Origin: a virus
DNA length: 27,277 nucleotides
Reading direction: 5' to 3' (one strand)
Virus record (IMG/VR): IMGVR_UViG_3300035181_001189
Coordinates: 1 to 27,277 of that record
Shown here: positions 896 to 17,928 of the stretch, one piece after another
Position numbering within the stretch: position 1 is the stretch's first letter
Layout of the letters: each line of letters starts with the position of its first letter
The notes under the pieces: generated by a model
Told to the model about the DNA's origin: nothing
Database searches by the model: none
The model's input: the letters and a program-made list of their open reading frames with translations, nothing else
Position numbers and translations under genes: made by a program

Positions 896-896
896 A

Positions 897-928: not shown

Positions 929-934
929 ATAATT

Positions 935-2000: not shown

Positions 2001-3731
2001 TTCTTTACTAAAACTCTCGGAATATTCACCGTCTCCCATTACCTGATCTATAATATTCTTTTTTCTTTGAAGGATATTATAAACGATCATTTCTATTGTG
2101 TTTTCAAACACCGGATAATAAACAAGAACACAGTTTTTTTGTCCATATCTGTATGCTCGGTCTTCGGCTTGTGAATGATCTGAGGGTACAAAAGATAAGT
2201 CGTTCATAATAACAACTTCCGAAGCGGTCATAGTAAATCCAACACCAGCCGCTTTTATGTTACCTATTAATATCTTTACCTTGTCATCCGATTGAAATCG
2301 ATCAACACTTTCTTGTTTTTTAAGTTTAGTCATTTGACCATTTACAATGACACAGTTTTTTTTGTACTTATCCTGTAACATCTGTAAACTCATTGTAAAA
2401 TTGGTGAATACAATCACTTTTTTACCCTGTTCAATGAATTTATCAATTAATTCACAAGTATACGGTATTTTCTCAATGGCAATTAGTTGTCTAACTTTCA
2501 TTAAACGATTTAAAGTAACCGGGACACTTTCTTTGTCCTTGTTATCTGCCGTAATACGCATAAAATCCTCTATTTCCTGATCATAGAATGTGTTCTTTAG
2601 TTCTAGGAATACCGGGGTAATAATTTTCTCCGGGAGATCTAGTACATCGGTTTTCATTCTTCGTAATACAACATTTTTAGTTCTTTCTCTTAACTCATCT
2701 AAGTGGGTAGCACCACCGGTGTTCCATACTTTTCTTTTTTCAACCTTGAACTGGTAACCGCCACAATATCTACGAACATAACCCTGCCAATTTAAAGTAA
2801 TTGGTGATCTTACAATTCTTAGAAGGTTAAAGTAGTTAATTGGTCTTGAAGTCATTGGTGTTCCGGTCAATAACCATACTTTTGGTATCTCTTCAAGTAT
2901 ATCATTTAATAGTTTTGTTCTTTGTGCAGTTGTGTTGGAAATATAATGAGCTTCGTCAACAATTGCCAGATCAAAGTGTTCGTTCATAATTAATTTATAA
3001 GCGTCACTTTCTTCACTAGTCTCGGTTGTATGAAAATTCTTTAAAATATCATAATTTATGATATAATAGTCAAAGGTTGATCCCCATTTTGTTCCTTCGA
3101 TGATTAAAATCTTTTTTCTTGTATAAATCTCGATTTCTCTCTTCCAATTGATTTTTAATGACGCAGGACAAACGATTAGTACTTTCTTAACGTCCAACTC
3201 TAATGAAGCCACAACCGCTGTCGTGGACTTTCCCAGACCCATATCGTCAGCTAAAATGAACCTATCGTTGGCTAATAATTTAGGAACGGCTTCTTTTTGG
3301 TGAGATAATAGTGGTCTTACTGAATATTTTTCGAAGTCTATTTCTTTTTTGTATTGTTTTTCGGGTTGAACCACGGCAAATTTAGGCAACCACATTGCGT
3401 ATAATTTATCTTTTTCATAAATTTTACCCCAAACGTGATATGCTTTGTCCGTTTCACACAAAAGTTTTTCAATCCATATTTTTGTGGGTGGTGACGGTAA
3501 TAGTCTTTGTTCCATTAACGTTTCACCAAAACCTTCGACTATATCAACATATTTTCTAGCCACTTTAGGTATAGTTGATTGGTATGTAACAACATATTCC
3601 GCTTGCGGTCTAGTTAATTTGAATTTTATTGCTTTTTCAAACCTTAATTTCCATTCTAATAGTTGATTATTCGATCCTGTATATTGATTTAAAATTTCTC
3701 TTGCTTCAACTTCTAGTATTTTCTTCTCCAT
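1980..3731 (-). CDS. SNF2-family DNA helicase/translocase
   Basis: The 583-residue product has the full two-lobe SNF2 helicase core: Walker A DDMGLGKST at residues 162-170, motif Ia CPASLKINW at about 188-196, DEAH box at 259-262 (IVDEAHYIS), TGTP motif III at 289-292, and in the second lobe QAEDRAYRYGQ, the arginine-finger motif VI typical of SNF2 proteins. The compact size and lack of accessory domains resemble SMARCAL1-like annealing helicases. It probably remodels forks or recombination intermediates, a role filled in T4 by the unrelated-looking UvsW, and so would work with the UvsX and SSB encoded at 25-27 kb. It runs against the flanking genes; TATATTTT lies 4 bases before its ATG. About 140 N-terminal residues before the core are unassigned. 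Confidence 0.93.
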   Translation of the reverse strand: MEKKILEVEAREILNQYTGSNNQLLEWKLRFEKAIKFKLTRPQAEYVVTYQSTIPKVARKYVDIVEGFGETLMEQRLLPSPPTKIWIEKLLCETDKAYHVWGKIYEKDKLYAMWLPKFAVVQPEKQYKKEIDFEKYSVRPLLSHQKEAVPKLLANDRFILADDMGLGKSTTAVVASLELDVKKVLIVCPASLKINWKREIEIYTRKKILIIEGTKWGSTFDYYIINYDILKNFHTTETSEESDAYKLIMNEHFDLAIVDEAHYISNTTAQRTKLLNDILEEIPKVWLLTGTPMTSRPINYFNLLRIVRSPITLNWQGYVRRYCGGYQFKVEKRKVWNTGGATHLDELRERTKNVVLRRMKTDVLDLPEKIITPVFLELKNTFYDQEIEDFMRITADNKDKESVPVTLNRLMKVRQLIAIEKIPYTCELIDKFIEQGKKVIVFTNFTMSLQMLQDKYKKNCVIVNGQMTKLKKQESVDRFQSDDKVKILIGNIKAAGVGFTMTASEVVIMNDLSFVPSDHSQAEDRAYRYGQKNCVLVYYPVFENTIEMIVYNILQRKKNIIDQVMGDGEYSESFSKELLKDIL

Positions 3732-3735
3732 ATAT

Positions 3736-3766
3736 AAAATATAACCTTTTAGATTAAATATTTAAA
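3736..3766 (-). promoter_or_regulatory. Putative host-type promoter of the helicase gene
   Basis: Reading leftward, TTTA (3766-3763), a 19-base spacer and TATATTTT (3743-3736) approximate the Bacteroidota promoter, with one mismatch in each box. The ATG at 3731 lies 4 bases downstream, so the transcript would be essentially leaderless. Confidence 0.35.
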
Positions 3767-3767
3767 G

Positions 3768-3774
3768 TATTTAT
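3768..3774 (+). promoter_or_regulatory. Putative late promoter element TATTTAT
   Basis: This is the TATTTAT motif, here only 5 bases before the ATG at 3780, the closest spacing of the group. It is divergent from the helicase promoter in the same 48-base gap. Confidence 0.3.
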
Positions 3775-3779
3775 TAAGT

Positions 3780-4292
3780 ATGGAAAACAAACTGCCAATC
3801 ACGAGAATAAATAAGTTTTTCGGTCAACAAGACTTCGATTTAGATATCCAAATGGGTAAAGAATATTTACACGGTGATATTAATATGAAACTCGTTTTAT
3901 ATAGAGTTGATAGAGCAAGAACCGAAAAAGACGATGTTTATGCCGAAATAGGTAAAGATGAAATTAAATTCTTTCCACCAATTGAAATAAACGGTATTGT
4001 AAGAGCCGATGGACCTAAAAATTCTTCGTACAAATCAGGAATGGAACGTTACCTTGAACCCGGTAATATGACTTTTTCGGTATATATCTCTCATTTAACT
4101 GAATTAAACGTTGATATAAGATACGGTGATTACGTCGGGTATCCTGAATCTGAAACAAGAATGAGATATTATACTGTATCGAATGACGGTAAGGTAGTGT
4201 CGGATAATAAACATAGTCATTTTGGATTTAAGCCAGCATATAGAACAATAACTTGTGTTCCGGTACAAGAAAACGAATTCAGGGGGGTATAA
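3780..4292 (+). CDS. Putative virion (neck/connector-type) protein
   Basis: The 170-residue product was not recognised with certainty. It is beta-rich with few helices and contains the tyrosine- and glycine-rich stretch DIRYGDYVGYPESETRMRYY, then HSHFGFKPAYRTITCVPV near the C-terminus, the style of phage connector or adaptor proteins. It heads the rightward group that leads into tail completion and sheath genes, which is where T4-like phages place neck genes. Its stop codon overlaps the next start (TAATG at 4290-4294), so the next gene is translationally coupled. There is no Shine-Dalgarno before the ATG. Structural role is inferred from position and composition only. Confidence 0.7.
   Translation: MENKLPITRINKFFGQQDFDLDIQMGKEYLHGDINMKLVLYRVDRARTEKDDVYAEIGKDEIKFFPPIEINGIVRADGPKNSSYKSGMERYLEPGNMTFSVYISHLTELNVDIRYGDYVGYPESETRMRYYTVSNDGKVVSDNKHSHFGFKPAYRTITCVPVQENEFRGV
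4281..4287 (+). promoter_or_regulatory. Unusually strong ribosome binding site AGGGGGG
   Basis: AGGGGGG lies 4 bases before the ATG at 4292 and decides that start. Most other starts here have only A-rich leaders, so this gene may be translated by a different mode or need reinitiation help at the TAATG overlap. Confidence 0.55.
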
Positions 4293-4702
4293 TGAAAATA
4301 ATATTGAGTGAACAACAATATGATAATCTATTAACTGAAGTTATTCGTAACTCGGAAGTGAGAACCGATATGGATTCGATTATGTCCGTTGCTGAAGGTA
4401 AGAGAGGTGTAGGGTTCATCACCCTTTACCCGGATTCGAGAATGTCGCATATTGCGGAAAAAATGATTGAAGATAATGATTTACGTATGGTTAGATGTCC
4501 ATCAAGACCAATTAATGTTGTTATTTATAGACCCAAATCTAGAAAAGACGCAATGGAGCTCGTGTCGATAGCAGAAAAATATAACGGATATTTAGCATAT
4601 AACGCAACTGAAGAAGATTCCAGAAGGATCGGTCAGTTGTTATCATACCACGAAGACGATATTAACGACTACATTAATCGTACAGGTAAATATAAGAGAT
4701 AA
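4292..4702 (+). CDS. Hypothetical protein, 136 residues, in tail-completion operon
   Basis: The start was set at 4292 rather than an upstream in-frame ATG at 4253. The 4292 ATG overlaps the previous stop as TAATG and is preceded by AGGGGGG at 4281-4287, one of the few strong Shine-Dalgarno-like sequences in the window. The product starts MKIILSEQQYDNLL and looks alpha/beta, with a helix-strand alternation through residues 30-120 (FITLYPDSRMSHIAEKMIED, then NVVIYRPKSRKDAMELVSIA). No catalytic motif was recognised. Its place between putative neck and tail-completion genes suggests a virion or assembly role, but this is context only. Confidence 0.7.
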   Translation: MKIILSEQQYDNLLTEVIRNSEVRTDMDSIMSVAEGKRGVGFITLYPDSRMSHIAEKMIEDNDLRMVRCPSRPINVVIYRPKSRKDAMELVSIAEKYNGYLAYNATEEDSRRIGQLLSYHEDDINDYINRTGKYKR

Positions 4703-4713
4703 AAATTATTATA

Positions 4714-5967
4714 ATGGCAATAGGTAAAAGAAAAAACGACATAGATGTTCATCATCACAAAGAACTAACAGGTAGAAGGCAAGAATTATTGGATAGAATA
4801 ACTGAAGCGGATAGTTATCTACCGGATTCAATTTTACACGATGATCTAGACCTTGGTATGCTTGAGTTCGTGAAAGAAAATCTAAAGGTTATATCCGATG
4901 GTGTTCAAATACCGATTGTTCCTAAAATTTTAACCATCCAAAGATGGGGTGAAATGGCGAATAACTGGAATTTTAGTGATGAAGACGGTAACTTTAAATT
5001 ACCATTTATTGCTGTTGTAAGAAAACCTGATGTTCAACCCGGAACTAATCCTTTCGTTCAAAGAACCATACCGGATAGAAGAACTTTTCACTACGCCACA
5101 GTTAAAACGTGGAACGGTAATCAAATGGGTGCTGATGTATATAAAATACCTCAACCAACTGCCATTGATATTAGTTACGAAATTATTATTGTTTGTCAAA
5201 AATTAAGAGACTTAAATAAATTCAATAAATCTGTATTACTAAAATTTTCATCAAGACAGGCTTATACATCAGTAAAAGGACATTATGTTCCTATTATTTT
5301 AGATAAAATTGACGACAACTCACCAATTGATTCTATTGATGGTCGTAGATTTTATATGCAAAACTATGATATGACAATGTTAGGTTTTCTTATTGATTCG
5401 GACGAGTTTGAAGTTAAACCAGCAATTAGTAGACTATTTTTAATGACGGAAATATCAAACGAAATGGCTTCCGTTAAAAAGTCGTATAAAGCGAGTGTTG
5501 ATATTTCGTGTATAAGATTTGTCGGTGATGATATTCATACGGCATATAGTGTCGGTGAATCCATCGGGTATCTTTTTTACGTGACTGTTAATGGTCTAAT
5601 CCAACAAAGAGACGTAGATTATTATCATATTGCAGGAACATCAAGAGTTATTTTTCCATCACCGCCAGGCACTGGGGACATTATTTTAATCTGTTATCAC
5701 GCAATGTCTAGTGGTAATTTCCTTAATGATGCCGGAGCACCTATTACACTTTCAAATGAATATTTTACATATCCAGATGGAGGATCATTATTAATAGTCC
5801 TTGCACATAACATAGATAGTGTTGTTCATTTAGAAATTAATGGTTTAATTGAAGAAGAATCATATGGATATGTAATTACGGGACCAAATGAAATAACATT
5901 AACGTCACCCCCACCAACAGGAGAGGGTAATATAGCGGTAGTTGGTGTAACATATTTCTATCAATAA
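4714..5967 (+). CDS. Putative tail completion/sheath-stabiliser protein with C-terminal beta repeats
   Basis: The product has 417 residues. The first ~270 contain AIDISYEIIIVCQKLRDLNK, a helix-strand region and RRFYMQNYDMTMLGFLIDSD, an alpha/beta architecture plausible for a tail terminator such as T4 gp15. It is followed immediately by the sheath gene after a small regulator. Residues ~270-417 hold two related beta units: FYVTVNGLIQQRDVDYYHIA...VIFPSPPGTGDI and VVHLEINGLIEEESYGYVIT...ITLTSPPPTGEGNI. The shared pattern V-x-(V/I)NGLI(Q/E)(Q/E)-x(4)-Y-x-I-x(5)-I-x(3)-SPP-x-TG-(D/E) is common in phage fibre and decoration modules. The terminator role is inference; the duplication is directly visible. 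There is no Shine-Dalgarno; the start is 11 bases after the previous stop. Confidence 0.7.
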   Translation: MAIGKRKNDIDVHHHKELTGRRQELLDRITEADSYLPDSILHDDLDLGMLEFVKENLKVISDGVQIPIVPKILTIQRWGEMANNWNFSDEDGNFKLPFIAVVRKPDVQPGTNPFVQRTIPDRRTFHYATVKTWNGNQMGADVYKIPQPTAIDISYEIIIVCQKLRDLNKFNKSVLLKFSSRQAYTSVKGHYVPIILDKIDDNSPIDSIDGRRFYMQNYDMTMLGFLIDSDEFEVKPAISRLFLMTEISNEMASVKKSYKASVDISCIRFVGDDIHTAYSVGESIGYLFYVTVNGLIQQRDVDYYHIAGTSRVIFPSPPGTGDIILICYHAMSSGNFLNDAGAPITLSNEYFTYPDGGSLLIVLAHNIDSVVHLEINGLIEEESYGYVITGPNEITLTSPPPTGEGNIAVVGVTYFYQ

Positions 5968-6123
5968 TTATTCTCCGTATAAATCGGTTTTCTTTTGTTT
6001 ACAGTTTTCATCGATCCATTTTTCTAAAACTTTATAAATTTTAGTTCCGTTGGCGTCGCAATAAGATTTTAACTTATTGTGGTGTTTTTCACTTATTTTC
6101 ACGTTTTTCATCTTGTTCTGCAT
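5968..6123 (-). CDS. Small ribbon-helix-helix-like DNA-binding regulator, 51 residues
   Basis: A 52-codon frame including stop runs leftward from ATG at 6123 to TAA at 5968, filling the gap between two rightward genes and abutting the stop of the upstream one. The product begins MQNKMKNVKISEKHHNKLKS and continues with YCDANGTKIYKVLEKWIDEN. A short strand (VKIS), a helix, a turn at NGT and a second helix match the ribbon-helix-helix (Arc/MetJ-type) layout in both size and order. Such proteins usually bind short direct or palindromic repeats as dimers and regulate their own promoter. A repeat cluster of that type lies directly upstream at 6131-6160. It could regulate itself and the divergent sheath gene. 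Family assignment is by pattern only. Confidence 0.65.
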   Translation of the reverse strand: MQNKMKNVKISEKHHNKLKSYCDANGTKIYKVLEKWIDENCKQKKTDLYGE

Positions 6124-6126
6124 ATT

Positions 6127-6134
6127 GAAAGATA
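6127..6134 (-). promoter_or_regulatory. Possible -7 box of the small regulator gene
   Basis: TATCTTTC reads leftward and lies 3 bases before the ATG at 6123, like the -7 boxes near the nuclease-like and helicase genes. No TTTG was found at the expected -33 distance, so the promoter may be weak or need an activator. Confidence 0.3.
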
Positions 6135-6160
6135 TTAAAGGATATTTTAAGATAATTATC
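6131..6160. promoter_or_regulatory. Candidate operator: GATA repeats at 10-base spacing
   Basis: GATATT (6131), GATATT (6141) and GATAAT (6151) start exactly 10 bases apart, one helical turn. The last is part of a perfect 10-base palindrome GATAATTATC (6151-6160), followed by another TATC at 6161. A flanking inverted repeat TATTTTAAG (6143-6151) / CTTAAAATA (6172-6180) encloses it. The cluster overlaps the likely promoter of the small regulator gene and sits upstream of the sheath gene. Confidence 0.5.
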
Positions 6161-6205
6161 TATCTTTTCCCCTTAAAATACGGAAATCTTTCATAAAAAC
6201 AAAGA

Positions 6206-6212
6206 TATTTAT
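6206..6212 (+). promoter_or_regulatory. Putative late promoter element TATTTAT for the sheath gene
   Basis: The context is GATATTTATGAATAAG, 39 bases before the ATG at 6252, leaving a purine-rich A-dominated leader. The same GATATTTAT core recurs at 23957. Confidence 0.45.
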
Positions 6213-6251
6213 GAATAAGAATAAAAATAAAAAAAAAATAAATAACAACCA

Positions 6252-9083
6252 ATGGCAAATTCAAACAAAATTTTCGTTTCACCGGGTGTATATACATCGG
6301 AGAAAGACTTAACATTTGTTGCACAAAGTGTCGGAGTAACAACATTAGGATTAGTAGGTGAAACTTTAAAAGGACCTGCGTTTGAACCTATGTTGATTAC
6401 CAATTTCGACGAGTTCAAAACATACTTTGGAACAACAACACCTGAAAAGGACGGTATAGGTAATCCTAAATATGAACTACCGTATAACGCAAAATCATAT
6501 TTACAGGAATCCAACCAATTATTCGTAACAAGAGTACTTGGATTAACCGGATATAAACCTAACAAAACATTTGGTATTACTACAATTGGTGGCGTAACTT
6601 ATACAGGTACAACAACACCGGCACAAAATACCGGAACAATGGCACCAACAAGCGGTATTACAGGTAGTACATTTTATCCTGAATTATCAGGTAAAATGGC
6701 AACAACAGGTGATAGTGTAACAAATTGGATTTTAAGTGGTACTCCATACGCACAAGACGATTGGTTTACAATTGGTTTAGTTCCAGATACATTAATAACA
6801 GGGTTAACCGGAAAGAGAATTACAGGTCCTATTGGTGATAATAACAATCAGAATTGGTATAACTACTATTTCAACGGAACAAATGCTTTGTATTCATATC
6901 TTTTTGTTTACGCTAGTGGAACATCAACATTTACAGTTACAAGATTTACATATGTTGCGGCTGTAAATAATTTTGAAAATTTAACAGTTGCGGCATTAAG
7001 ATCAAGAGGGAAATATACAGGGGAAACTTTAAATTTAGAAGTAACTGCAAACACAGGACTTACAATGTCATCAACAACATTAACAACAAACCCATTGGGT
7101 GAGTTTACTCTTAATGTTAACGGTCTTACAAGTGGAGCAAAAACTTTTACTTGTGCTTTAGACACAACATCATCAAAATATATGACAAAAGTTTTGGGTG
7201 TTAATGTTTATGATAAAGATGAGGCAGAATATCCGGTATATGTTTATGAAATTTATCCTAATCTTGTAAAATCATTATATGAAAGTGGTTTAATAAGAGG
7301 ATTAAAAGTAACTCCGGTATATCACTTAACTGGTAATGATTTTCTAACACAATGGGAAACTCCTTCTTCACCGATGGTTGTTTCTGAAGTTCGTGGTGGA
7401 AACGTTGCTGACTTATTCCAAATTCTTACAGTATCAGACGGTGATGCCGCTAATACACAGGTAAAAGTAACTATTATGAACATAAACTTAGATTCGGGTG
7501 AATTTGATGTGATGGTTCGTGATTTCTACGATACAGACGATAATATGGTTGTATTGGAGAAATATTCAAGATGTTCTATGAATTCGGAATTACCGGGTTA
7601 CGTGGCTCTAAAAATAGGTACTGTTGATGGTGAATATGAATTACGTTCAAAATTCATTATTTTATCTATGGCTGATGGTCATCCAACAGACGCAATTCCT
7701 GCAGGATTTAAAGGATTTGTTACAGATACACTAACAACATCTGTATTAGGTGGACTTAGATATAAAACTGATTTTTATGTTGCTGGTGATGAAACCGGTG
7801 CTTACGATACTTTTGGTGAACCCGTTTTAGCAGCAAGAACTGAAAGTTTCAAAAAAGTTTCTCTTGGTTTATCTTCAACAGTAGGGTATGATAGTGATAT
7901 ATTCAAATATAAAGGAATTAACGCAGATGCGGTAACAACAGGTTTCCACTTGTCAGTAAACGCTTCAACAATCACAGGTGTAACCAACACAGGTTTTGCT
8001 TACGATACAACTCCATATGATTTAGAAGGTCAAACCGGAACAGATAATAAATTGGAAAACATAAACTATCGTAAATTCACCTTGGCTCCGTCCGGTGGTT
8101 ACAATGGATGGGACATTTACAGAAACGTAAGAACAAATACCGATGGTTATATTTACGGTAAAAAAACTTACATTTCAGGTAACACTAACAATGGTGGTGT
8201 TTTCAATGTAAACGTTCCAAACTCTGACTATTACGCATACCTATTGGGTATAGAAACATTCGCAAATCCTGAAGCGGTTAACATTAACATCTTCGCAACT
8301 CCGGGTATCAACTACCAAGATCACGGATCATTGGTAACACAAACAGTTGATATGATTGAGAATGATAGAGCAGATTCACTTTATATCATAAATTCTCCTG
8401 GTCCTACAACAATCACTACCGCACAAGATGCTGTTGATAGTTTAGATACCGCGAATATGGATACTAACTATTCAGCAACCTTCTGGCCTTGGATACAAGT
8501 TAGAGATAGTGATAACTCAACACAACTATATCTTCCTCCAACAGGTGAAGTACTTAAAAATCTTGCTTTAACTGATAACGTAGCTTATCCTTGGTTCGCT
8601 ACCGCAGGTTATTCGAGAGGTCTTGTAAGTTCAATTAAAGCATTTAAAAAACTTACACTTGATGAAAGGGATACTCTATACAAATATAGAATCAACCCAA
8701 TCGCTACTTTCTCCGATACCGGTACTATAATTTGGGGTAACAAAACCTTACAAGTAAGGGAGTCAGCACTTGATAGAATTAACGTAAGAAGATTACTATT
8801 AAGAGCAAGAAAACTTATTTCAGCGGTTGCCGTTAGATTACTGTTCGAACAAAATGACGAACAAGTAAGAAACGAATTCCTAAGATTGGTTAACCCTATC
8901 CTAGAAGCAATTAAGAAAGAAAGAGGTTTATACGATTTCCGTGTAACTGTTTCCAATGATCCTGAAGATATCGATGCTAACACATTGAGAGGTAAAATTT
9001 ACATTAAACCAACAAGAAGTTTGGAATTCATTGATGTAGAATTTATTATCACACCAACAGGTGCATCATTCGAAAATATCTAA
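6252..9083 (+). CDS. Contractile tail sheath protein (gp18-like)
   Basis: The N-terminus FVSPGVYTSEKDLTFVAQSV with following GLVGETLKGPAFEP is the classic sheath opening. The C-terminal ~170 residues, including INVRRLLLRARKLISAVAVR, NEFLRLVNPILEAIKKERGL and FIDVEFIITPTG, form the conserved sheath domain that packs on the tube and links subunits. The protein forms the contracting outer tail cylinder. At 943 residues it is much longer than T4 gp18 (659). The extra length lies in the threonine-, glycine- and asparagine-rich middle (about 110-700), probably surface-exposed domains. The start has an A-rich leader without Shine-Dalgarno. A terminator follows at 9093-9128, so the very abundant sheath message ends separately from the tube gene. 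Confidence 0.95.
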   Translation: MANSNKIFVSPGVYTSEKDLTFVAQSVGVTTLGLVGETLKGPAFEPMLITNFDEFKTYFGTTTPEKDGIGNPKYELPYNAKSYLQESNQLFVTRVLGLTGYKPNKTFGITTIGGVTYTGTTTPAQNTGTMAPTSGITGSTFYPELSGKMATTGDSVTNWILSGTPYAQDDWFTIGLVPDTLITGLTGKRITGPIGDNNNQNWYNYYFNGTNALYSYLFVYASGTSTFTVTRFTYVAAVNNFENLTVAALRSRGKYTGETLNLEVTANTGLTMSSTTLTTNPLGEFTLNVNGLTSGAKTFTCALDTTSSKYMTKVLGVNVYDKDEAEYPVYVYEIYPNLVKSLYESGLIRGLKVTPVYHLTGNDFLTQWETPSSPMVVSEVRGGNVADLFQILTVSDGDAANTQVKVTIMNINLDSGEFDVMVRDFYDTDDNMVVLEKYSRCSMNSELPGYVALKIGTVDGEYELRSKFIILSMADGHPTDAIPAGFKGFVTDTLTTSVLGGLRYKTDFYVAGDETGAYDTFGEPVLAARTESFKKVSLGLSSTVGYDSDIFKYKGINADAVTTGFHLSVNASTITGVTNTGFAYDTTPYDLEGQTGTDNKLENINYRKFTLAPSGGYNGWDIYRNVRTNTDGYIYGKKTYISGNTNNGGVFNVNVPNSDYYAYLLGIETFANPEAVNINIFATPGINYQDHGSLVTQTVDMIENDRADSLYIINSPGPTTITTAQDAVDSLDTANMDTNYSATFWPWIQVRDSDNSTQLYLPPTGEVLKNLALTDNVAYPWFATAGYSRGLVSSIKAFKKLTLDERDTLYKYRINPIATFSDTGTIIWGNKTLQVRESALDRINVRRLLLRARKLISAVAVRLLFEQNDEQVRNEFLRLVNPILEAIKKERGLYDFRVTVSNDPEDIDANTLRGKIYIKPTRSLEFIDVEFIITPTGASFENI

Positions 9084-9092
9084 TATTGAGAG

Positions 9093-9128
9093 AAGTACCT
9101 TGGATAACTTTCTGAGGTACTTTTTTTT
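9093..9128 (+). terminator. Intrinsic terminator after the sheath gene
   Basis: AAGTACCT (9093-9100) and AGGTACTT (9115-9122) form an 8-pair stem with a 14-base loop, running into eight T residues (9121-9128). It sits 10 bases after the sheath stop codon. Confidence 0.85.
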
Positions 9129-9170
9129 AATTTTTCCCCAGTAGCCTAGAGCAAATAAAAAAAAATGAAA

Positions 9171-9210
9171 ATTGAAAAAAATTGAAAAAAATTGAAAAAA
9201 ATTGAAAAAG
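9171..9210 (+). repeat. Four tandem 10-base A-tract repeats (ATTGAAAAAA)
   Basis: ATTGAAAAAA occurs four times head to tail, the last copy ending in G, with a related ATGAAA just before. A-tracts repeated every 10 bases are in phase with the helix and are known to give intrinsic DNA curvature. Confidence 0.85.
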
Positions 9211-9222
9211 CTCATATTTAAT

Positions 9223-9344
9223 CTAGAACTAGATTATAGAACTAGAATAAAAGTACTAGAATAAAAGCACTAGAATAAATAAATATATTATACTAGAACT
9301 AGAATACTAGAGCTAATAACCAGAACTAGAACCAGAGCAACTAG
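9223..9344. repeat. CTAG-centred repeat cluster (ACTAGAA units)
   Basis: CTAG occurs at 9223, 9229, 9242, 9256, 9270, 9293, 9299, 9307, 9326 and 9341, plus an outlier at 9146. Three consecutive 14-base units of the form ACTAGAATAAAAGY begin at 9241, 9255 and 9269, the third degenerate. Flanking these are tandem hexamer-like CTAGAA copies and degraded CCAGAA/CCAGAG forms. The unequal spacing excludes a CRISPR. Function is unknown; iteron-like binding sites are the simplest reading. Confidence 0.8.
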
Positions 9345-9426
9345 GTGGAAAAAATAACGAAAAAAAATGACAATATCAAATCTTTTTTAAAAATAACCAA
9401 TTTTTTTTAAATTTTGTAATAGTGTA

Positions 9427-9434
9427 TATTTATA
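9427..9434 (+). promoter_or_regulatory. Putative late promoter element TATTTATA for the tube gene
   Basis: The context TGTATATTTATAAGAAAG lies 35 bases before the ATG at 9470, with an A-rich leader free of Shine-Dalgarno. The spacing is close to that of the sheath gene, which fits two highly expressed tail genes. Confidence 0.45.
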
Positions 9435-9469
9435 AGAAAGAAATAAAACTAAACTAACAACAATACGAA

Positions 9470-9958
9470 ATGGCAGACCTATTAATGAAAATGCCCGTTC
9501 CATACGAGCCAAAAAGACAAAATAGATTCATCGTGAGATTTCCTTCTTCGATGGGAATCAACGAATGGTATGTAACGTCAGCGGCTAGACCTAATGCTAA
9601 AATAAATGCAACAGAAATTCCATTTCTAAATACATCAACATTCGTTGCTGGTAGATTCAATTGGAATGAAATAAGAGTAACTTTCAAAGACCCAATCGGA
9701 CCATCAGCCGCACAAGCACTTATGGAATGGTTTCGTCTACACGCAGAATCAGTAACAGGTAGAATGGGGTACGCCGCAGGATATAAAAAAGATATAGAAT
9801 TAGAAATGCTAGACCCTACGGGTGTTGTAGTAGAAAAATGGATTCTTCAGGGTACTTTCCTTACCGATATTAACTTCGGTGAATTAGATTACTCAAGAGA
9901 CGACATCGCAACTATCACAACATCACTAAGAATGGATCGTTGTATTCAAGTATACTAG
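9470..9958 (+). CDS. Tail tube protein (gp19-like)
   Basis: The 162-residue product matches the size of T4 gp19 (163 residues) and follows the sheath gene as in T4-like phages. The opening PYEPKRQNRFIVRFPSSMGI, the middle WNEIRVTFKDPIGPSAAQAL and the ending YSRDDIATITTSLRMDRCIQ show the tube-fold pattern of two beta sheets, with a loop and helix (ALMEWFRLHAES) between them. It polymerises as the inner tail tube through which DNA passes. The gene sits between the repeat region and a strong terminator and has its own TATTTATA element, so it appears to be a single-gene unit. Confidence 0.94.
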   Translation: MADLLMKMPVPYEPKRQNRFIVRFPSSMGINEWYVTSAARPNAKINATEIPFLNTSTFVAGRFNWNEIRVTFKDPIGPSAAQALMEWFRLHAESVTGRMGYAAGYKKDIELEMLDPTGVVVEKWILQGTFLTDINFGELDYSRDDIATITTSLRMDRCIQVY

Positions 9959-10010
9959 TATTTTTTGTTTATCAAATCATTCTATATTAAATTTACATAA
10001 GACTGTAATT

Positions 10011-10048
10011 ATCCCTCGCATAACCATTTATGTGAGGGATTTTTTTTG
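10011..10048 (+). terminator. Intrinsic terminator after the tube gene
   Basis: ATCCCTCGCATAA (10011-10023) pairs with TTATGTGAGGGAT (10028-10040) in a 13-pair stem with one G-T wobble and a CCAT loop, followed by a run of T (10040-10047). It is strong and well placed, about 50 bases after the tube stop. Confidence 0.9.
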
Positions 10049-10090
10049 GGAAACTTTACTTTGTGATAGTTATATGTTAAATTTAAACTT

Positions 10091-10840
10091 ATGGAAGAAT
10101 TTAGAATTGACCCAACAATCGCGTATGATGTAGTTGAACTACCAAGTAGAGGAATACACTACGCAAGTAAAAAGAAATCATTCAAAGTGGCTTATTTAAC
10201 AGCCGCAGATGAGAATATTTTATCATCACAAAACCTAATCCAATCAAACGGTGTTATTCCGGAACTTCTAAAACGAAAAATTTTAGATAGGGATATTACT
10301 TTTGAAGAAATTGTGGAAGAAGATAAAGAAGCAGTATTAATCTTTTTACGTAACACAGCATTCGGTTCAGAATACACAATGAATCTAACTGATCCAAAAA
10401 CTAAAGAACCGTTTGTTCATATTGTTGATTTATCAACAGTTAAGATGAAACCATTTGATTTAGTTGCCGATCCAAATGGTGAATATAAATTTTTCTTACC
10501 AAAAACAAAGGCGGAGATTACTTTTAAATTCATCACCCAAACACAAGAAGACGAATTAGATAAACTAAAAACAAGTTGGAACGGTCTTGGTGTCGCACCA
10601 ATCGTCACAAAAAGATTAGAAATGATGATTAAATCAGTCGCAGGAAACAGAGATATGATGCAAATTCATAATTTAGTCGAAAATATGCCAATAACAGATT
10701 CACAAGATTTTAAAAAGTTTGTGAGTGAAAATAAACCGGGGTTGGATTTAACCCAAACTGTTATCGCCCCATCCGGAGAAAAGGTCCACATTGAAGTCGG
10801 ATTTGGGGTAGAGTTTTTTCGACCTTTCTACGGAATATAA
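10091..10840 (+). CDS. Tail assembly chaperone, gp26-like (short form)
   Basis: The 249-residue product resembles the T4 baseplate/hub family around gp26 (Pfam T4_baseplate). It has an N-terminal VVELPSRGIHY, then KVAYLTAADENILSSQ and a middle helix-rich domain (EIVEEDKEAVLIFLRNTAFG), ending VEFFRPFYGI. It sits directly before the tape measure gene, the position of tail chaperones such as lambda G. The reading frame overlaps a downstream +1 frame that lacks an ATG and encodes a conserved-looking gp51-like tail; the shift would occur at the TTT-TTT-C near 10814. The start at 10091 follows an A/T-rich leader with no Shine-Dalgarno. I am confident in the gene and fairly confident in the family. 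Confidence 0.8.
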   Translation: MEEFRIDPTIAYDVVELPSRGIHYASKKKSFKVAYLTAADENILSSQNLIQSNGVIPELLKRKILDRDITFEEIVEEDKEAVLIFLRNTAFGSEYTMNLTDPKTKEPFVHIVDLSTVKMKPFDLVADPNGEYKFFLPKTKAEITFKFITQTQEDELDKLKTSWNGLGVAPIVTKRLEMMIKSVAGNRDMMQIHNLVENMPITDSQDFKKFVSENKPGLDLTQTVIAPSGEKVHIEVGFGVEFFRPFYGI

Positions 10841-10970
10841 AAGGGGTCAATTAAACGAAATTCTGTTCTTAATAAAAAAAGGGTTTTCGTACTCTGATTT
10901 AATATCTATGCCTGTGTTTGTTAGAAGATACTATATACAGTTTATTCTCGAAGGTGAAAACGTTAGTTAA
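10812..10970 (+). CDS. gp51-like C-terminal extension, probably reached by +1 frameshift
   Basis: This frame opens at 10812 just after a TAG and ends at TAA 10968-10970. It has no ATG, GTG or TTG before residue conserved-looking GFSYSDLISMPVFVRRYY; the first ATG is that methionine itself. Shifting +1 after TTT at 10817-10819 (the Phe tRNA can re-pair on TTC) gives a continuous protein of 243 + 49 = 292 residues. The 49-residue part reads DLSTEYKRGQLNEILFLIKK and then GFSYSDLISMPVFVRRYYIQ, resembling the short gp51-type proteins next to gp26 in T4-like phages. An alternative is a separate gene using a rare start such as ATT or CTG after AAGGGG at 10841-10846. Confidence 0.6.
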   Translation, partial: SFFDLSTEYKRGQLNEILFLIKKGFSYSDLISMPVFVRRYYIQFILEGENVS

Positions 10971-10996: not shown

Positions 10997-12874
10997 ATGG
11001 GTGATGAAAAAGATGGTATATCAATAAAGGCTATAGAATATTTGTTTAGTAAAAATCAAAGTGGCTGGTTAAAAGAAACTGAAGGAGTATTCAATAGTAG
11101 AAGCGAATCTATTAAAATGTTCGAGAAATATTCGAGCAAAACAAATAAAGTAGATCTTTCAGGTTTACCGCTAACACCAGAGAAAACTTTTGGTGTTGGA
11201 GATGTTATTCGTGGTATTTTAAAGTCACAATCTGGAAAAGATAGTGGCACATATCCCGGAGAATTTATTAAACTAGAAGATGGTATGAATCTTTTCTTTA
11301 ATAAAACAACCAACCAATTATCAAGTCTTAAAGGAATTATCAGTAATTTTCTTTCAAAATCATTTCAACAAGTAACATTAGCATTTGAAGAACAATCGGA
11401 TTTACTAACAGAAATTAACACAAAAACAGGATTAACGGGTAAATTATCTGAGGGGTTCAGAGCCAATATAATAGAAACTTCGGTTTATGCCGCTGGGTTA
11501 GAAGTTTCATTTGGTGATCTTTCCGAATCTATGTCAAAAATATTAGTGGATTCCGGAAGATTTAAAATTATGAGTTCAGAAACAATGAATAAAATAGTTT
11601 TAATGAGTAAAGTTGGTTTTGATAATATGACAGAAGCGGCTCAATCTGTTAGTGAATTTCAAAAAGTATCTATGGGTGCATCTGATGCTATGGAAGCGGT
11701 TAATAAAACCGTAACAAGTTCCTTACAATTAGGATTAAATGCAAAGGTAACAACAAAAGACCTAACAGCAAATATAGGTAAATTAAATACATACGGATTT
11801 AAAGATGGTATTGAAGGTCTAAGAAAGATGGTTCAACAGGCACAAGCATTAAAAATGGATTTAAACGAATCATTTAAACTTGCCGAAAAAGTTATGGACC
11901 CAACAGATGCTTTATCATTATCAGCAAACTTACAGGTTATCGGTGGAGCGTTAGGAGATTTTAACGATCCAATTAAAATGATGTGGATGGCAACAAACAA
12001 TGTTGAAGGATTACAAGATGCATTAGTTGGTAGTTTAGAAAGTTTAACGACATTTGATGAAAAATCCGGAACATTTAAAATTGTTGGTGCGGATTTAAGA
12101 CGAGCAAGAGCAATGGCAGATCAGTTTGGGATGTCATTACAAGAAGCAAGTAACCTTGCAATTCAAGCGGCACAGAGAACATCCGCCGCGACCGATATGA
12201 TGTCTTCAGGTCTTGTTTTTGATAACGAGGAAGACAAAGAATTCCTAACCAATTTAGCACAAATGAAAAATGGTAAAATGGTTATTGAAGTTCCTGAAGA
12301 TTTAAAACGAAAATTCGGTTCAACAGACATTGTTTTAGAAAAACTAACATCCGGACAAAAAGATGATATTCTAGCAATGAGAGAACAATTTAAAAAACTG
12401 AATGCCACAGATATTGCAGAACAACAAGTTAACGCAATAAAAAACATTGAAAGACTTGTTTCATATCTTGCGGCTAGAGGAAGAGCGGAAGTTGGTAACA
12501 GAGTATATCCGGGAGTTAACAACGCCGTAATGGAACAGTTAAACACATTAAAAGGTTATAAAAATTTGATTGAAAAAGGTATTATAACTTCTTCAGACGA
12601 ACTTGAAAATTTTATAAAAACGATGTTCAGTGCTGGTAAAAATGAAATACTTAATCTAAATCAAAACAATAAACCAAAAGCGTTACCCGTTCCTGTTGAA
12701 CCAACACAGAAAGAAAAACCATTACCTCCTGTTCCAACGAAAGAAGTATCAGAAAAAAACATAACAGTTAGTTTTAATTCTGACGCTACGATGGACACAT
12801 TCAAAAGAGCGGCATACAATGAATGGTTAATTAATAGTCCAGACGCAAAATCATATTTATTTAATGAAGCATAA
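10997..12874 (+). CDS. Tail tape measure protein (gp29-like)
   Basis: The 625-residue product is almost wholly helical, alanine/lysine/serine-rich and low in cysteine, as for tape measure proteins, and is close in length to T4 gp29 (590). Segments such as NKIVLMSKVGFDNMTEAAQS and AVNKTVTSSLQLGLNAKVTT are long amphipathic helices. A proline-rich linker at about residues 556-585 (KALPVPVEPTQKEKPLPPVP) precedes a short C-terminal domain. Position right after the gp26/gp51-type chaperone supports the call. It would fix tail length inside the tube and leave ahead of the DNA. The stop overlaps the next start by one base (TAATG), coupling it to the nuclease-like gene. Confidence 0.85.
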   Translation: MGDEKDGISIKAIEYLFSKNQSGWLKETEGVFNSRSESIKMFEKYSSKTNKVDLSGLPLTPEKTFGVGDVIRGILKSQSGKDSGTYPGEFIKLEDGMNLFFNKTTNQLSSLKGIISNFLSKSFQQVTLAFEEQSDLLTEINTKTGLTGKLSEGFRANIIETSVYAAGLEVSFGDLSESMSKILVDSGRFKIMSSETMNKIVLMSKVGFDNMTEAAQSVSEFQKVSMGASDAMEAVNKTVTSSLQLGLNAKVTTKDLTANIGKLNTYGFKDGIEGLRKMVQQAQALKMDLNESFKLAEKVMDPTDALSLSANLQVIGGALGDFNDPIKMMWMATNNVEGLQDALVGSLESLTTFDEKSGTFKIVGADLRRARAMADQFGMSLQEASNLAIQAAQRTSAATDMMSSGLVFDNEEDKEFLTNLAQMKNGKMVIEVPEDLKRKFGSTDIVLEKLTSGQKDDILAMREQFKKLNATDIAEQQVNAIKNIERLVSYLAARGRAEVGNRVYPGVNNAVMEQLNTLKGYKNLIEKGIITSSDELENFIKTMFSAGKNEILNLNQNNKPKALPVPVEPTQKEKPLPPVPTKEVSEKNITVSFNSDATMDTFKRAAYNEWLINSPDAKSYLFNEA

Positions 12875-13191
12875 TGGATAATTCATCAAAAATATACCTT
12901 ATAAAAAACGCTGAGGAAAGTTATTATAAAATTGGTGTAGGTAAAAACCCTAAACAAAGGTTAAAACAACTTCAAACAGGTTCACCTGCGGGGTTGATTT
13001 TAATAGAAACATTTAATACAGAACACGCTTATAAAATCGAAAAGGCTCTACATAGAAGATATTCACACCTAAAGAAAGAAGGTGAGTGGTTTAATTTTTC
13101 AATAGTGGAGCAATGTGAGTTTTTAAACATATGTAAAACTATCGAAAATTCGATTAAGACTTTGGTGGAGAGTGGTAATGTTTTTATATAA
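12874..13191 (+). CDS. GIY-YIG-like nuclease (T5orf172/MUG113 type)
   Basis: The 105-residue product has KIYLIKN at 6-12 in place of GIY, YYKIGVGKNPKQRLKQLQTG at 17-36 with Arg29, then a helix with Glu56 and His60 (YKIEKALHRRYS) and the closing GEWFNF at 70-75. This order (Y...YKIG...R...E..LH..Y...GEWF) is that of small stand-alone T5orf172/MUG113 GIY-YIG-type proteins, common in phages. It could be a homing-type endonuclease, or a repair or host-takeover nuclease. It sits between tape measure and baseplate genes, has no structural feature, and overlaps the tape measure stop. It looks like an insertion into the tail operon. No group I intron is visible near it. Confidence 0.8.
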   Translation: MDNSSKIYLIKNAEESYYKIGVGKNPKQRLKQLQTGSPAGLILIETFNTEHAYKIEKALHRRYSHLKKEGEWFNFSIVEQCEFLNICKTIENSIKTLVESGNVFI

Positions 13192-13227: not shown

Positions 13228-16200
13228 ATGCCAACATATCTAGATTTTGATTCTACAAGACAGTTTAGAGATTTTATAATAGGTAAAACACTAAATGTTG
13301 AGAACGGTCCACAGACCTTTACCTCTGCAAATTACATTGAACATAGTTTAAATGATTTTCCTGACATAGATCCGGGGGACGTTACAACTAATTTGAGTTC
13401 AGAATTACTTCAAACACAAAATTCAAACATCTTTAAACCAATCGAATATATGGTAAAGGATACTCTTGAGGTTTTACCGAGAAGAGCAAATCTTCACTTA
13501 TACCCATATTTTCAAACAGGACAGTATCATAATTTAATTGGTATTTTAATTAATGATAACTACGATACTGAATCAGAGTTATTTAAGTTCGCGGCACAAA
13601 ATATAAAAGAAAACCCTGAAGGTCCGGTACAAGCAAGAATAAGACAAAATCTTTATACCGCAACAGTAGGTAGATTAAATATACTTGACGCATTACAAGG
13701 TAATACAGCAACAGCAGTTAATTTATTAACCGGTAAACAACCATTAATAGAATACAATAACAAAATTACCGTGGCGAAAACATTACCCGGTAAAGTTATT
13801 GATTTTGCACAAACAATAGCGGGAGTTGAATTTCCTTGGGCAGAAATTCCGGGGGATTATTTAAGTAACCCGAGATCACCTGATGCACCAATGTCAGCCA
13901 TAAGTTTTCTTGGTGCTTTTTTTGGTATAAATAAAAGATCAAAATCCGATATAAAACCGTCCGATTTATTCATACAATATATGGGTAGTGGACAAAAACA
14001 GGTTTTATTCGATAATTTATCGTTCTCAAAGTACGCACCTAACTATACCACAACAGCAAGAAACCAAAACACATCTAAAGTTTTTAATTTTGTTAATAAT
14101 GTAGCACAAGGAGTACGAAACGCTCTTGGTATCGAAGCACCTGCCGGTGTTTCATATATTGGTGACGATAGATCGAATGATGTTAAATCCGCAATGAACG
14201 ATTTAACGGATATGCCACTTAGAAGTAGTTATTATTTAGGTTTAATGTTTGATGATGTTCAAACAAATTTACTTCATAAAGATAAAAACATTGGTGAAGG
14301 TGGCGGTTATGGCGGAAAATTAACGTGGATTAGTTCTAAATCTAGAAACAAACTTGGAGCAAATAACGCTGAATATGGATCTGAAAGTTCACAATACGAG
14401 GAAACCCTATCAACTAAATTCACATTTAGAGAAGATTCACTTCTAGGATATACACAAAATATACTAGAAATGTTACCGACAGATGGTGGAGCATCACGTT
14501 CACACGTTGCTAACGCTATTGATCAAACAAGTAGAGTTTTTAGGGACGGTGATTTAGTAATGTCACGTGGTTCTGCGGTAAAATATGTAGACAAATTCAC
14601 TGGTGAAGAAAGTGGTGTTGAATATTGTAGGGTATGGACAAAAGATAGATCATATTCGAATAATTCCGATTTAATGAAAAAAACTGGATTAATAAGAAAA
14701 TCTGAAGCGTCCGTTTTAAGTACACCGTATAATCTTAACATATACCCAAACTCCAACGGAAATGGTGATTTTGATAGTTCTTCAACGAATATAGTGCCAG
14801 AAAAAGATGGATTTTATGCTAAAAAATATATGTTTTCATTAGAAAACTTAGCGTGGAGATCATCTAATACTCCGGGATTTACTTATAATGATTTACCATA
14901 TTGTGAAAGAGGAAATAATGGGGGTAGAGTAATGTGGTTTCCGCCATATGATTTAAAAATAAGTGAACAAAATAGTGCAAGATGGTATGAAAATGAGTTT
15001 TTAGGTAGACCCGAACCAATTTATACATACCAAAATACAACAAGAGCGGGTACAGTATCTTTTAAAGTGATTGTGGATCACCCGAGTATATTAAACCTAT
15101 TGGTTAGAGAAAAGTTTAAAGGAATGTCAGATGAAGAATCTGATAATTATATAAACGCTTTTTTCTCGGGATGTGAAAACATAGATTTCTATGGTTTAAT
15201 AAGAAAATATGTAACATTATCACAAGACGATATCCAAAGAATAATAGATTACTTAAACGCAAGTAATTCGGCACAAACTATCACAAAATATAAGTCAGTA
15301 CTTGAACCGGTTAAAGATAGTAATGCTCCTGAAGCGGTTAAAAATACTGGTGGTGACGTTACAACGGTACAAAACAACACAACAACGATTAAAGAAATCT
15401 TATATTTTAATAATGATATTCCTAAACCATCCGGGGGTGAATTATACGGTGAGGATTACGAAACAACATATCAACAATATTTAAACTCCGAGTATGACTA
15501 TGTAGCACAATTAAAACAAGGGTTAAATGAATGGTACAATAAAACTACGATTTGGTCACTTGAGCAACAAAACGATCAGTTAAATTTATATGGAACGTCA
15601 TCTAATTATAGACCAGCATCAAGTGTTACTGGAAAAACTGTTGACGAAATCCAAATTAATGCGTTTGCGGAAATGAAAGATCATCACGATAGATATTCAA
15701 CCCAAATGGCATTATTAAAAAATGAGTTAGATAATAAAACAGTACAAAAAATATCTATAAACATAGAGTCGGCAACATCTGCTGTGGCTGACGACAAATA
15801 TAATCATAAATTATCATACAGAAGAAGTGATAGTATTATAAAAGATATAATAAATAGAATTAAAGCAACCGGAGCCGCATCACCTACAATTAAATGGCCA
15901 GAAACAAGCGTAAAAGAAACTAACAGTTCAACGATAGATAAACTACCCGAAATATCTTTTAAAGATTTGGGTTATAGTTTCGATGGTACAGTTTCATTCG
16001 GGCCAATTAGTAATCTTGGTGAACAATCAAAAAATGGACAGGTAAATTATAAGAAAAATATTGACTGTCACGAAAGAGTATTTAAAACATCTACTCTATT
16101 AAAAAAGACATCACCGCTGGCATTTTATTGTAGAGAATCTACAGTTACGGTTGTTTATGAATCCAAACCGATTCAACCCGGTACGGCATCTATTCCTCCC

Positions 16201-17928
16201 GGACAAGATACGCCAGAATTACGTAAAGTAACACTTATACAAGAACAAGTACCAAAAGCAAATAAAAAACCTCCATTGGATGAACTTAAAAGAATTGTAA
16301 TGAAAGTGTTATCAGAATGTTATTACTTTAAAAAATTGGAAGAGGACTCACCTATTGCTTTTAGTTCATTAAAAGAAAAACTTAGATATTTCCACCCAGC
16401 GTTTCACTCGATGACACCTGAAGGTTTAAATAGTAGGTTAACATTCTTAAATCAATGTGTAAGACCCGGAGACACAATTCCAATTAAAGGTATTTCAGAT
16501 GTAAACGATTTAAACGCAAGAAACACTACCTTTGGTCCTCCGCCTATTTGTGTTTTAAGAATAGGTGATTTTTATCATTCAAAAGTCGTTGTAAGAGATA
16601 TGAATGTTACATATGAAGAAGGACTTTGGGATTTAAACCCTGAAGGTATAGGTGTTCAACCAATGATTGCTAATGTTACAATGCAAGTTAACTTTATCGG
16701 TGGACACGGATTAGAAAAACCCGTTGAACTGTTACAAAATGCTCTAACATCCAACTTTTACGCAAATACTGAAATGTATGACTATAGAGCAACTGCAACT
16801 GAAGATAAAACTAAATTTACTAAAGAATTTTTAGGAGATTTAATAAAACCCCTACAATCACAACTTATACCACAAACGGATACAAAGTCATCAAATAATA
16901 TTAAGGAAGGAACATACATTGGGACATTAACAACCGAGGGAACTTCACAATTTTTAAGTTATGACGATCTTATTGGTAATGTGTTTACAACCACGTCAAA
17001 TTATTTTAATGGACATAAAGTAACGATGGAAAACATCACAAATTTGTATGGTTATAAAATTGCAAGTATGTTCTTCTCACCAACTTATAGAGAAGTTAAT
17101 GTTTTTGATGTTCAGACTGGTGCTGGTGTATTACCATTAACAATAATGGGACAATATAAGAAAAATAACGAATTATTCACTATCGCAAATGATTTCGCAT
17201 ATTCGATGGATCAAAAAATTAATACCACAAATATTAGTATTTTAATGGGGTTAGATAAAGATTTTGGTGATCCGATTATTAAAAAATCAGAAGAATTTTT
17301 AAAACCATACGTTAAATCCGAAATAAAAAGTATCCTTGAAAAAATACCAAATAATAAGGATATTAAATATGTAGAAAAAGTTAGAGGTGAATTTACCAAT
17401 AATTTAGATAAACTGAATTTCATTATTGAAGTTGGTTATGACGGTAAAATACTTCCCGATAACGTTTATTCAGGAGCAACGCTTTCCGGTTACACTTATC
17501 CTGATCTTTATGATAAGTATAAAACTTGTATTTCATACGCTCAGGACAATTTTAGTAAACTAATGGAAGGATTAGATACATCTATTACATTTAATAAAAA
17601 CTTAGTCATTACTGATGAATTATTAAGTGAGTTTTTATCTATTCTACTAACAAGTGGTGGTATATTAAGTGTTTATTCTAAAGACAAAACGATATTCAAT
17701 GAAAGTGTTATGAAAAAAATCACAAAACGAGTAAATAAATTTGTGGTTACAACACCGGCAATATCACCAAAAATAGGAAAATATCCAACGCCAAAAGATA
17801 ATACCAAAAAAAGTTATCTTATTTCAGATAATAGTCACGTGTTTACGGACACACAAAAAACAAATTTAACAAAAATAATGTCGTCTAGAGTTGATTTAGC
17901 GGTAAAATTAAACTATTATAAACAATGA
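13228..17928 (+). CDS. Giant baseplate/tail structural protein, 1566 residues
   Basis: No full-length family was recognised. Two regions look tail-specific. At about residues 575-630, WFPPYDLKISEQNSARWYEN and TTRAGTVSFKVIVDHPSILN suggest a tube-like or LysM-adaptor beta domain. At about 1100-1180, FYHSKVVVRDMNVTYEEGLW with ANVTMQVNFIGGHGL and LQNALTSNFY resembles the beta core of tail-tube initiator or hub-adaptor proteins. The remainder is mixed, with charged linkers near 690-760. Position after the tape measure and before gp53-like and hub-like genes supports a baseplate role, possibly joining tube and hub. It is far longer than any single T4 tube initiator (gp48, gp54). The stop overlaps the next start (17925) by 4 bases. 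Confidence 0.75.
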   Translation: MPTYLDFDSTRQFRDFIIGKTLNVENGPQTFTSANYIEHSLNDFPDIDPGDVTTNLSSELLQTQNSNIFKPIEYMVKDTLEVLPRRANLHLYPYFQTGQYHNLIGILINDNYDTESELFKFAAQNIKENPEGPVQARIRQNLYTATVGRLNILDALQGNTATAVNLLTGKQPLIEYNNKITVAKTLPGKVIDFAQTIAGVEFPWAEIPGDYLSNPRSPDAPMSAISFLGAFFGINKRSKSDIKPSDLFIQYMGSGQKQVLFDNLSFSKYAPNYTTTARNQNTSKVFNFVNNVAQGVRNALGIEAPAGVSYIGDDRSNDVKSAMNDLTDMPLRSSYYLGLMFDDVQTNLLHKDKNIGEGGGYGGKLTWISSKSRNKLGANNAEYGSESSQYEETLSTKFTFREDSLLGYTQNILEMLPTDGGASRSHVANAIDQTSRVFRDGDLVMSRGSAVKYVDKFTGEESGVEYCRVWTKDRSYSNNSDLMKKTGLIRKSEASVLSTPYNLNIYPNSNGNGDFDSSSTNIVPEKDGFYAKKYMFSLENLAWRSSNTPGFTYNDLPYCERGNNGGRVMWFPPYDLKISEQNSARWYENEFLGRPEPIYTYQNTTRAGTVSFKVIVDHPSILNLLVREKFKGMSDEESDNYINAFFSGCENIDFYGLIRKYVTLSQDDIQRIIDYLNASNSAQTITKYKSVLEPVKDSNAPEAVKNTGGDVTTVQNNTTTIKEILYFNNDIPKPSGGELYGEDYETTYQQYLNSEYDYVAQLKQGLNEWYNKTTIWSLEQQNDQLNLYGTSSNYRPASSVTGKTVDEIQINAFAEMKDHHDRYSTQMALLKNELDNKTVQKISINIESATSAVADDKYNHKLSYRRSDSIIKDIINRIKATGAASPTIKWPETSVKETNSSTIDKLPEISFKDLGYSFDGTVSFGPISNLGEQSKNGQVNYKKNIDCHERVFKTSTLLKKTSPLAFYCRESTVTVVYESKPIQPGTASIPPGQDTPELRKVTLIQEQVPKANKKPPLDELKRIVMKVLSECYYFKKLEEDSPIAFSSLKEKLRYFHPAFHSMTPEGLNSRLTFLNQCVRPGDTIPIKGISDVNDLNARNTTFGPPPICVLRIGDFYHSKVVVRDMNVTYEEGLWDLNPEGIGVQPMIANVTMQVNFIGGHGLEKPVELLQNALTSNFYANTEMYDYRATATEDKTKFTKEFLGDLIKPLQSQLIPQTDTKSSNNIKEGTYIGTLTTEGTSQFLSYDDLIGNVFTTTSNYFNGHKVTMENITNLYGYKIASMFFSPTYREVNVFDVQTGAGVLPLTIMGQYKKNNELFTIANDFAYSMDQKINTTNISILMGLDKDFGDPIIKKSEEFLKPYVKSEIKSILEKIPNNKDIKYVEKVRGEFTNNLDKLNFIIEVGYDGKILPDNVYSGATLSGYTYPDLYDKYKTCISYAQDNFSKLMEGLDTSITFNKNLVITDELLSEFLSILLTSGGILSVYSKDKTIFNESVMKKITKRVNKFVVTTPAISPKIGKYPTPKDNTKKSYLISDNSHVFTDTQKTNLTKIMSSRVDLAVKLNYYKQ

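Follow-up and report, generated by a model that had tools for sequence, protein, structure and literature searches.

A gene located ahead of the probable tape measure gene of a T4-type contractile-tail module very probably contains a programmed +1 frameshift, through which a single gene would yield two tail-assembly chaperones, of 249 and 292 aa. The module is carried by an IMG/VR virus fragment, analysed here over its whole length of 27,277 nt (the window). A shift of this kind had been put forward in the initial annotation of the window, and is now supported by the conservation of the site, by the presence of a UUU_CGN motif with a rare codon in the A site, by frozen Phe codons and by purifying selection on the tail. 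There are no protein or ribosome-profiling data, and the occurrence of the shift, its efficiency and the long protein product are inferred.

Organization of the tail module

The features discussed in this work are collected in Table 1.

Table 1. Features of the tail module and of the proposed shift site, in coordinates of the window
Feature	Coordinates	Strand	Evidence or remarks
Tail sheath (gp18-like)	6252..9083	+	phrog_23, 2e-64
Tail tube (gp19-like)	9470..9958	+	phrog_4542, 2e-26
Short product in frame 0, T4 gp26-like, putative hub assembly chaperone, 249 aa	10091..10840	+	PF12322, phrog_150, AF2
Proposed long product by +1 shift, gp51/GT-like form, 292 aa	10091..10970	+	Conceptual translation, hhalign
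GGG-GTN upstream of the shift site	10805..10810	+	Possible SD-like or other stimulatory element
+1 open frame with gp51-like tail, 52 codons, no start before the core	10812..10970	+	Conservation, dN/dS, AF2
Shift site TTT-TTT-CGA (TTT_TTT_CGN)	10814..10822	+	TTTTTTCGN invariant in 66/66; UUU_CGN motif; rare CGN
Probable tape measure gene, 625 aa	10997..12874	+	Conserved neighbour in relatives; name from position only

The gene order fits the earlier placement of the frameshifted gene before the tape measure, but the 625-aa product had no Pfam or PHROGs family match and the identity of the latter gene relies on its position alone. At 943 aa, the tail sheath is unusually long, and a large insertion precedes its conserved sheath domains at 663-933. 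An ORF coding for a GIY-YIG/T5orf172-type (MUG113) endonuclease-like product (12874-13191) is situated between the presumed tape measure gene and the next large gene; this ORF may be a mobile insertion, because relative L008 lacks an ORF of similar size at that position. The tail region also includes two very large ORFs (13228-17928 and 18238-23943; 1566 and 1901 aa), for which we found no PHROGs match and no significant Pfam match.

Overlapping frames and the proposed shift site

Re-reading of the frames bore out the coordinates, the GAG-TTT-TTT-CGA overlap and the product sizes of the initial annotation. In frame 0, GAG (10811-10813), TTT (10814-10816), TTT (10817-10819) and CGA (10820-10822) are followed by CCT TTC TAC GGA ATA and the stop codon TAA (10838-10840). 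Starting with AGT at 10812, directly after a TAG (10809-10811), the +1 frame stays open until TAA at 10968-10970, and reading TTTC (10817-10820) as a single Phe step leads to a product of exactly 292 aa, versus 249 aa for frame 0. The motif TTTTTTCG was found only once on the + strand of the window, and there are only three in-frame TTT-TTT pairs across its 12 main ORFs. As had been noticed before, no ATG, GTG or TTG occurs in the +1 frame of the window ahead of an ATG (near 10906) that is already within the conserved core.

Conservation in three clades

A search of viral contigs identified 72 relatives of the window gene. Leaving out those that were too short, the 66 full-length sequences (65 close relatives plus the window), which correspond to 41 distinct genes, all keep TTTTTTCGN at the end of frame 0 together with an open and conserved +1 tail. 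Whether relatives retain TTT-TTT-C and the missing start, a point raised in the initial annotation, had a different answer for each: the former is kept in 66/66 sequences, but a total absence of upstream starts was seen in the window and in 7 of the 41 distinct genes. Most of the others contain an upstream TTG in the +1 frame, and one contains an ATG, although these starts are not conserved.

Two further clades, of 71 and 65 distinct genes, were gathered using as queries Microcystis phage Mel-JY01 and Flavobacterium phage immuto, respectively; the proteins of these clades are 24-32 % identical to that of the window. All 136 distinct genes have a +1 site and tail in the corresponding position, with sites TTT-TTT-TGG-CC (97 genes), TTT-CTT-TGG-CC (29), TTT-CTA-TGG-CC (4), CTT-TTT-TGG-CC (3) and a TAC variant (3), and with tails that start FFGL or nearly so. 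Bacillus phage SP-15 (TTT-TTT-CAC) and Streptococcus phage vB_SagM-GXN1 (TTC-TTT-CGT) share this +1 arrangement. Annotations of isolates list the +1 tail as a small hypothetical protein of its own, with an internal or upstream start, as in loci L074 (4854-4964, immuto35A_232) and L075 (4728-4964, WWT39326.1). Searching bacterial genomes with the window's own protein did not retrieve close relatives, whereas a search with an alignment of the distant clades returned 13 matches, about half of them titled Flavobacteriales; the relatives point to a host of the window in this order. The TTT-TTT-T site and the +1 tail were also kept in the 12 later loci recovered from bacterial genome assemblies, all with a short -1 frame.

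This conservation rules out a sequencing error, and the probability that the overlap reflects a sequencing or assembly indel in a continuous gene is negligible: we found no point in its favour, more than 170 distinct genes, taken from assemblies and isolates that are independent of each other, share the arrangement, and at no locus of the three clades are tail and hub gene in one frame.

Codon-level constraint and possible stimulators

The nucleotide sequence of the site shows constraint at the level of codons. Synonymous diversity at both Phe codons was 0 in the window and Mel types, and 0 and 0.12 in the immuto type, compared to upstream means of 0.36 (window), 0.48 (Mel) and 0.42 (immuto). 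Upstream stretches of five codons with diversity as low as that of the site were absent from the Mel (0/264) and immuto (0/234) clades and scarce in the window clade (5/237). The Arg codon following TTT-TTT is CGN in 41/41 distinct genes, versus 20 of the 344 Arg codons upstream in the same genes; in the main ORFs of the window, CGN accounts for 41/235 Arg codons. The YTT codon is followed by T or C, a condition for re-pairing, and an AGA codon would block the +1 move, because tRNA-Phe re-pairs only if the next base is U or C. UUU_CGN is, besides, a recognised +1 motif of influenza A PA-X and of amalgaviruses (PMC5052127). It should be considered that these counts of conservation and codons derive from related sequences and are not independent trials, and that +1 coding itself limits some of these bases.

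The Gly codon three codons upstream of the site (-9; 10805-10807 in the window) is GGG in 41/41 distinct genes, compared to 12 % of Gly codons elsewhere, and the equivalent codon of the immuto type is GGG in 43/64 (9 % elsewhere). In the window clade, GGG-GTN as a whole is fixed. A role of this element at the nucleotide level is likely, since the +1 frame of the window does not encode protein at this point, a TAG being located after it. Shine-Dalgarno-like stimulators of frameshifting are known in prfB, and GGG-GTN could be an untested stimulator of that type. No RNA structure was found 3′ of the shift site (z 0.52).

The same tail frame might be entered in two other ways. A -2 shift, as known in phage Mu, would lead to a product of 293 aa, with one extra Phe, and the run of six T would allow a tRNA to re-pair two bases back; we consider it very unlikely, because half of the immuto-type clade has TTT-CTT or TTT-CTA, which pair poorly after a -2 move, and still has the tail in the same frame, and because a +1 shift agrees with the presence of a conserved and rare CGN in the A site. 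Transcriptional slippage, in which the RNA polymerase drops one base on the homopolymer and part of the mRNAs encode the fusion, is compatible with the six T of the window and with the seven present in most genes of the other clades. It appears highly unlikely, however, as the run is broken in 34 of the 65 immuto-type genes (TTTCTT or TTTCTA), where the +1 frame is still used, and as it leaves the CGN codon and the logic of Phe re-pairing unexplained. A +1 shift of the ribosome accounts best for these sequences.

The short product and the tail

The initial description of the 249-aa product as gp26-like was supported directly, with a score only just above the cut-off for PF12322 (25.4 vs 24.5 bits), a match to phrog_150 (5e-7) and an AF2 model (pLDDT 89) whose best viral structure matches include T4-like baseplate hub assembly proteins. 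A role of this product as a chaperone is inferred.

The tail is a real protein part under purifying selection: dN/dS in the stretch coding only in +1 was 0.37 in the window clade and 0.16 and 0.24 in the other two, with values of 0.22, 0.11 and 0.16, in the same order, for the hub part. Modeled separately from the frame-0 product, and not as a fused protein of 292 aa, the tail was predicted by AF2 as three helices (pLDDT 90.8), the first of which starts at the FF common to both frames. The tail of the window alone did not match any family, and those of its relatives showed only weak matches, to the hub assembly catalyst family phrog_634 (0.007; 4/40), DUF6760 (0.003; 4) and Phage_TAC_13 (0.03; 1), which hint at a wider C-terminal motif shared by tail chaperones. 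DUF6760 occurs in contractile injection systems; it was not found in control genomes. A search of solved structures by sequence returned no match, and a structure search with the tail returned no significant one, although a 57-aa protein of the T4-like Aeromonas phage PX29 superposed at 0.8 Å over 44 columns (E 3.1). Likewise, none of the solved tail chaperones matched significantly in fold, that of HK97 (2ob9) being at rank 20 (E 2.5).

Alternatively, the tail could be a separate small protein produced from a non-standard start or by reinitiation, as annotated in some relatives. This possibility would be in line with the unconserved upstream TTG codons of many relatives, with the gp51 of cyanophage S-PM2, annotated from an ATG, and with a tail of Vibrio phage K474 that has its own ATG (see below). 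Nevertheless, it is very unlikely for the window, where a TAG lies two bases before the T run and there is no start until the ATG deep in the conserved core; in addition, the starts are unconserved and the shift site is conserved, and the predicted first helix begins at FF. The +1 frameshift is retained as the probable origin of the tail.

Homologs in T4 and in cyanophages

In phage T4, genes 26 and 51 are separate and on opposite strands. Either product is covered for the most part by matches to PF12322 and phrog_150, and the C-terminus of gp51 additionally matches phrog_634. By these matches gp26 and gp51 are paralogues, gp51 consisting of a gp26-type domain plus a C-terminal tail, so the short and long products of the window would correspond to gp26 and gp51, respectively. 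The initial annotation was thus right in that the two are separate in T4, but not in its view of the window gene as a fusion of two different parts, since T4 gp51 already contains both.

The annotated gp51 of cyanophages is short (57 aa in S-PM2), and those of cyanophages and marine vibriophage were described as lacking the first ca. 200 residues and retaining only the C-terminus, without mention of a frameshift (PMC3037559). We found that, in cyanophages as well as other relatives of T4, this short gp51 is encoded in the -1 frame of gp26; the heptamer before it is T_TTT_TTC in all but one of the 53 distinct loci (52/53), the exception having T_TTT_TTT. In S-PM2 (L243:472-1364) and in loci L244-L323, gp26 ends in NNT-TTT-TTC and gp51 follows in the -1 frame; this layout is also present in phages of Acidovorax, Vibrio (VH7D), Agrobacterium, Pseudomonas, Stenotrophomonas and Aeromonas. 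A conceptual -1 fusion of the cyanophage genes aligned end-to-end with T4 gp51, through the junction (99.4 %, E 6e-22). To judge from these sequences, Kyanoviridae seem to use a -1 frameshift that has not been annotated, and several of the annotated starts of cyanophage gp51 may be false. Separate initiation of gp51 is excluded less firmly here than in the window: the first possible start is 10-19 nt past the site in 25/53 loci, and only 3 have none within 60 nt.

Two loci depart from these layouts. The tail of Vibrio phage K474 (L335, 2223-2405) has an ATG of its own, where stop and start codons overlap, and lacks a slippery site, possibly a derived state without frameshift. In the distant homologue LR756511 (L240, 3001-3959), TTT-TTC-TTC precedes a tail-like segment in the +2/-1 frame, which shares ca. 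100 nt with the end of frame 0.

The description of the tail as gp51-like is supported only through intermediates. A direct comparison of the window tail with T4 gp51 aligned at the right place without reaching significance (E 0.079), but successive comparisons link the window tail with the Mel-JY01-type tail (probability of 98.3 %), the latter with the cyanophage tail (95.6 %), and this with T4 gp51 (95.9 %). The long form of the window also aligned with the cyanophage gp26-gp51 fusion across the junction (hhalign, 89.9 %, E 1.7e-6). A quick tree of the hub domain separated +1 and -1 genes with a single change (branch support of 99), with both T4 genes on the -1 side; the root is not known, several branches are long and finer points are unsure.

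Comparison with known recoding systems and proposed mechanism

A close parallel is lambda G/GT, also a gene before the tape measure with a short form and a rarer long one, whose C-terminal tail is in another frame and is reached by recoding near the 3′ end. It differs in that the lambda shift is -1 and that the window gene would serve the hub of a contractile, T4-type tail; there is no detectable sequence kinship between them. The window gene thus appears to work like G/GT, yet its +1 polarity places it outside the lambda-type -1 class. A probable +1 shift, of the same polarity, is attributed to the tail chaperone of the archaeal myovirus HSTV-2 (cited in PMC5009743). The influenza A PA-X and plant amalgavirus sites share an identical UUU_CGN with a rare Arg codon in the A site, but belong to unrelated viruses that use eukaryotic ribosomes (PMC5052127). 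In cyanophage gp26 and short gp51, the Phe-Phe pair seen in the window likewise precedes a tail in a different frame, but this is the -1 frame and the site is T_TTT_TTC, a canonical -1 heptamer, whereas T4 has a gp26-type domain and a C-terminal tail of the same kind distributed over two genes instead of one gene with a shift. A two-gene chaperone without frameshift, with short and long forms that share a domain, exists in phage 0305phi8-36 (gp143/gp144; PMC2147016) and is the state that we propose for T4.

In the mechanism that we propose, most ribosomes would terminate at 10840, producing the 249-aa gp26-like form. A minority would pause with tRNA-Phe on UUU 10817-10819 and the rare CGA Arg codon waiting; that this is the Phe codon that slips is an inference. 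The tRNA-Phe would then move one base forward, from TTT (10817-10819) to TTC (10818-10820), and reading in +1 to 10970 would add a helical tail of 49 residues, for a total of 292 aa. The binding partners are likewise inferred, by comparison with lambda G/GT: the region shared by both forms would bind the tape measure and hub parts, while subunits of the tail tube or hub would be recruited by the tail present only in the rarer form. In T4, two paralogous genes would encode these two forms, as gp26 and gp51.

In lambda, the G:GT molar ratio is crucial and neither protein is found in the virion; the 2016 review that states this also considers the tail-chaperone frameshift widely conserved in long-tailed phages "except T4" (PMC5009743). 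T4 gp51 is also absent from the particle and its function is unknown (PMC3004832). This parallel, together with the existence of a two-gene precedent without frameshift, is the reason to propose gp26/gp51 as the G/GT of the T4 group. We consider it probable that the hub chaperone of the T4 supergroup is a G/GT-type frameshift gene whose shift, located at one and the same Phe-Phe pair, is +1 in the lineage of the window and -1 (T_TTT_TTC) in cyanophages as well as other relatives of T4; that a single reversal of polarity left the product unchanged; and that T4 replaced the shift with paralogues 26 and 51. As part of this joint reading, the frameshift would have been overlooked because the tail is short and has no start. 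We found no report of a gp26/gp51 frameshift in the open literature, a search that did not cover subscription papers.

Phages of the T4 branch had been regarded as lacking such a shift. If our interpretation is correct, the T4 group is no exception to the use of frameshifted chaperones, and its short and long forms are gp26 and gp51, hub chaperones whose function is given as unclear; the replacement of the shift by genes 26 and 51 would explain why T4 seemed the exception. The annotation would be corrected in the many phages where the tail was missed or given a false start, and UUU_CGN would gain a conserved use in phages. These homologous genes would also constitute a natural experiment, with a +1 shift, a -1 shift and gene duplication as alternative routes to one and the same fusion.
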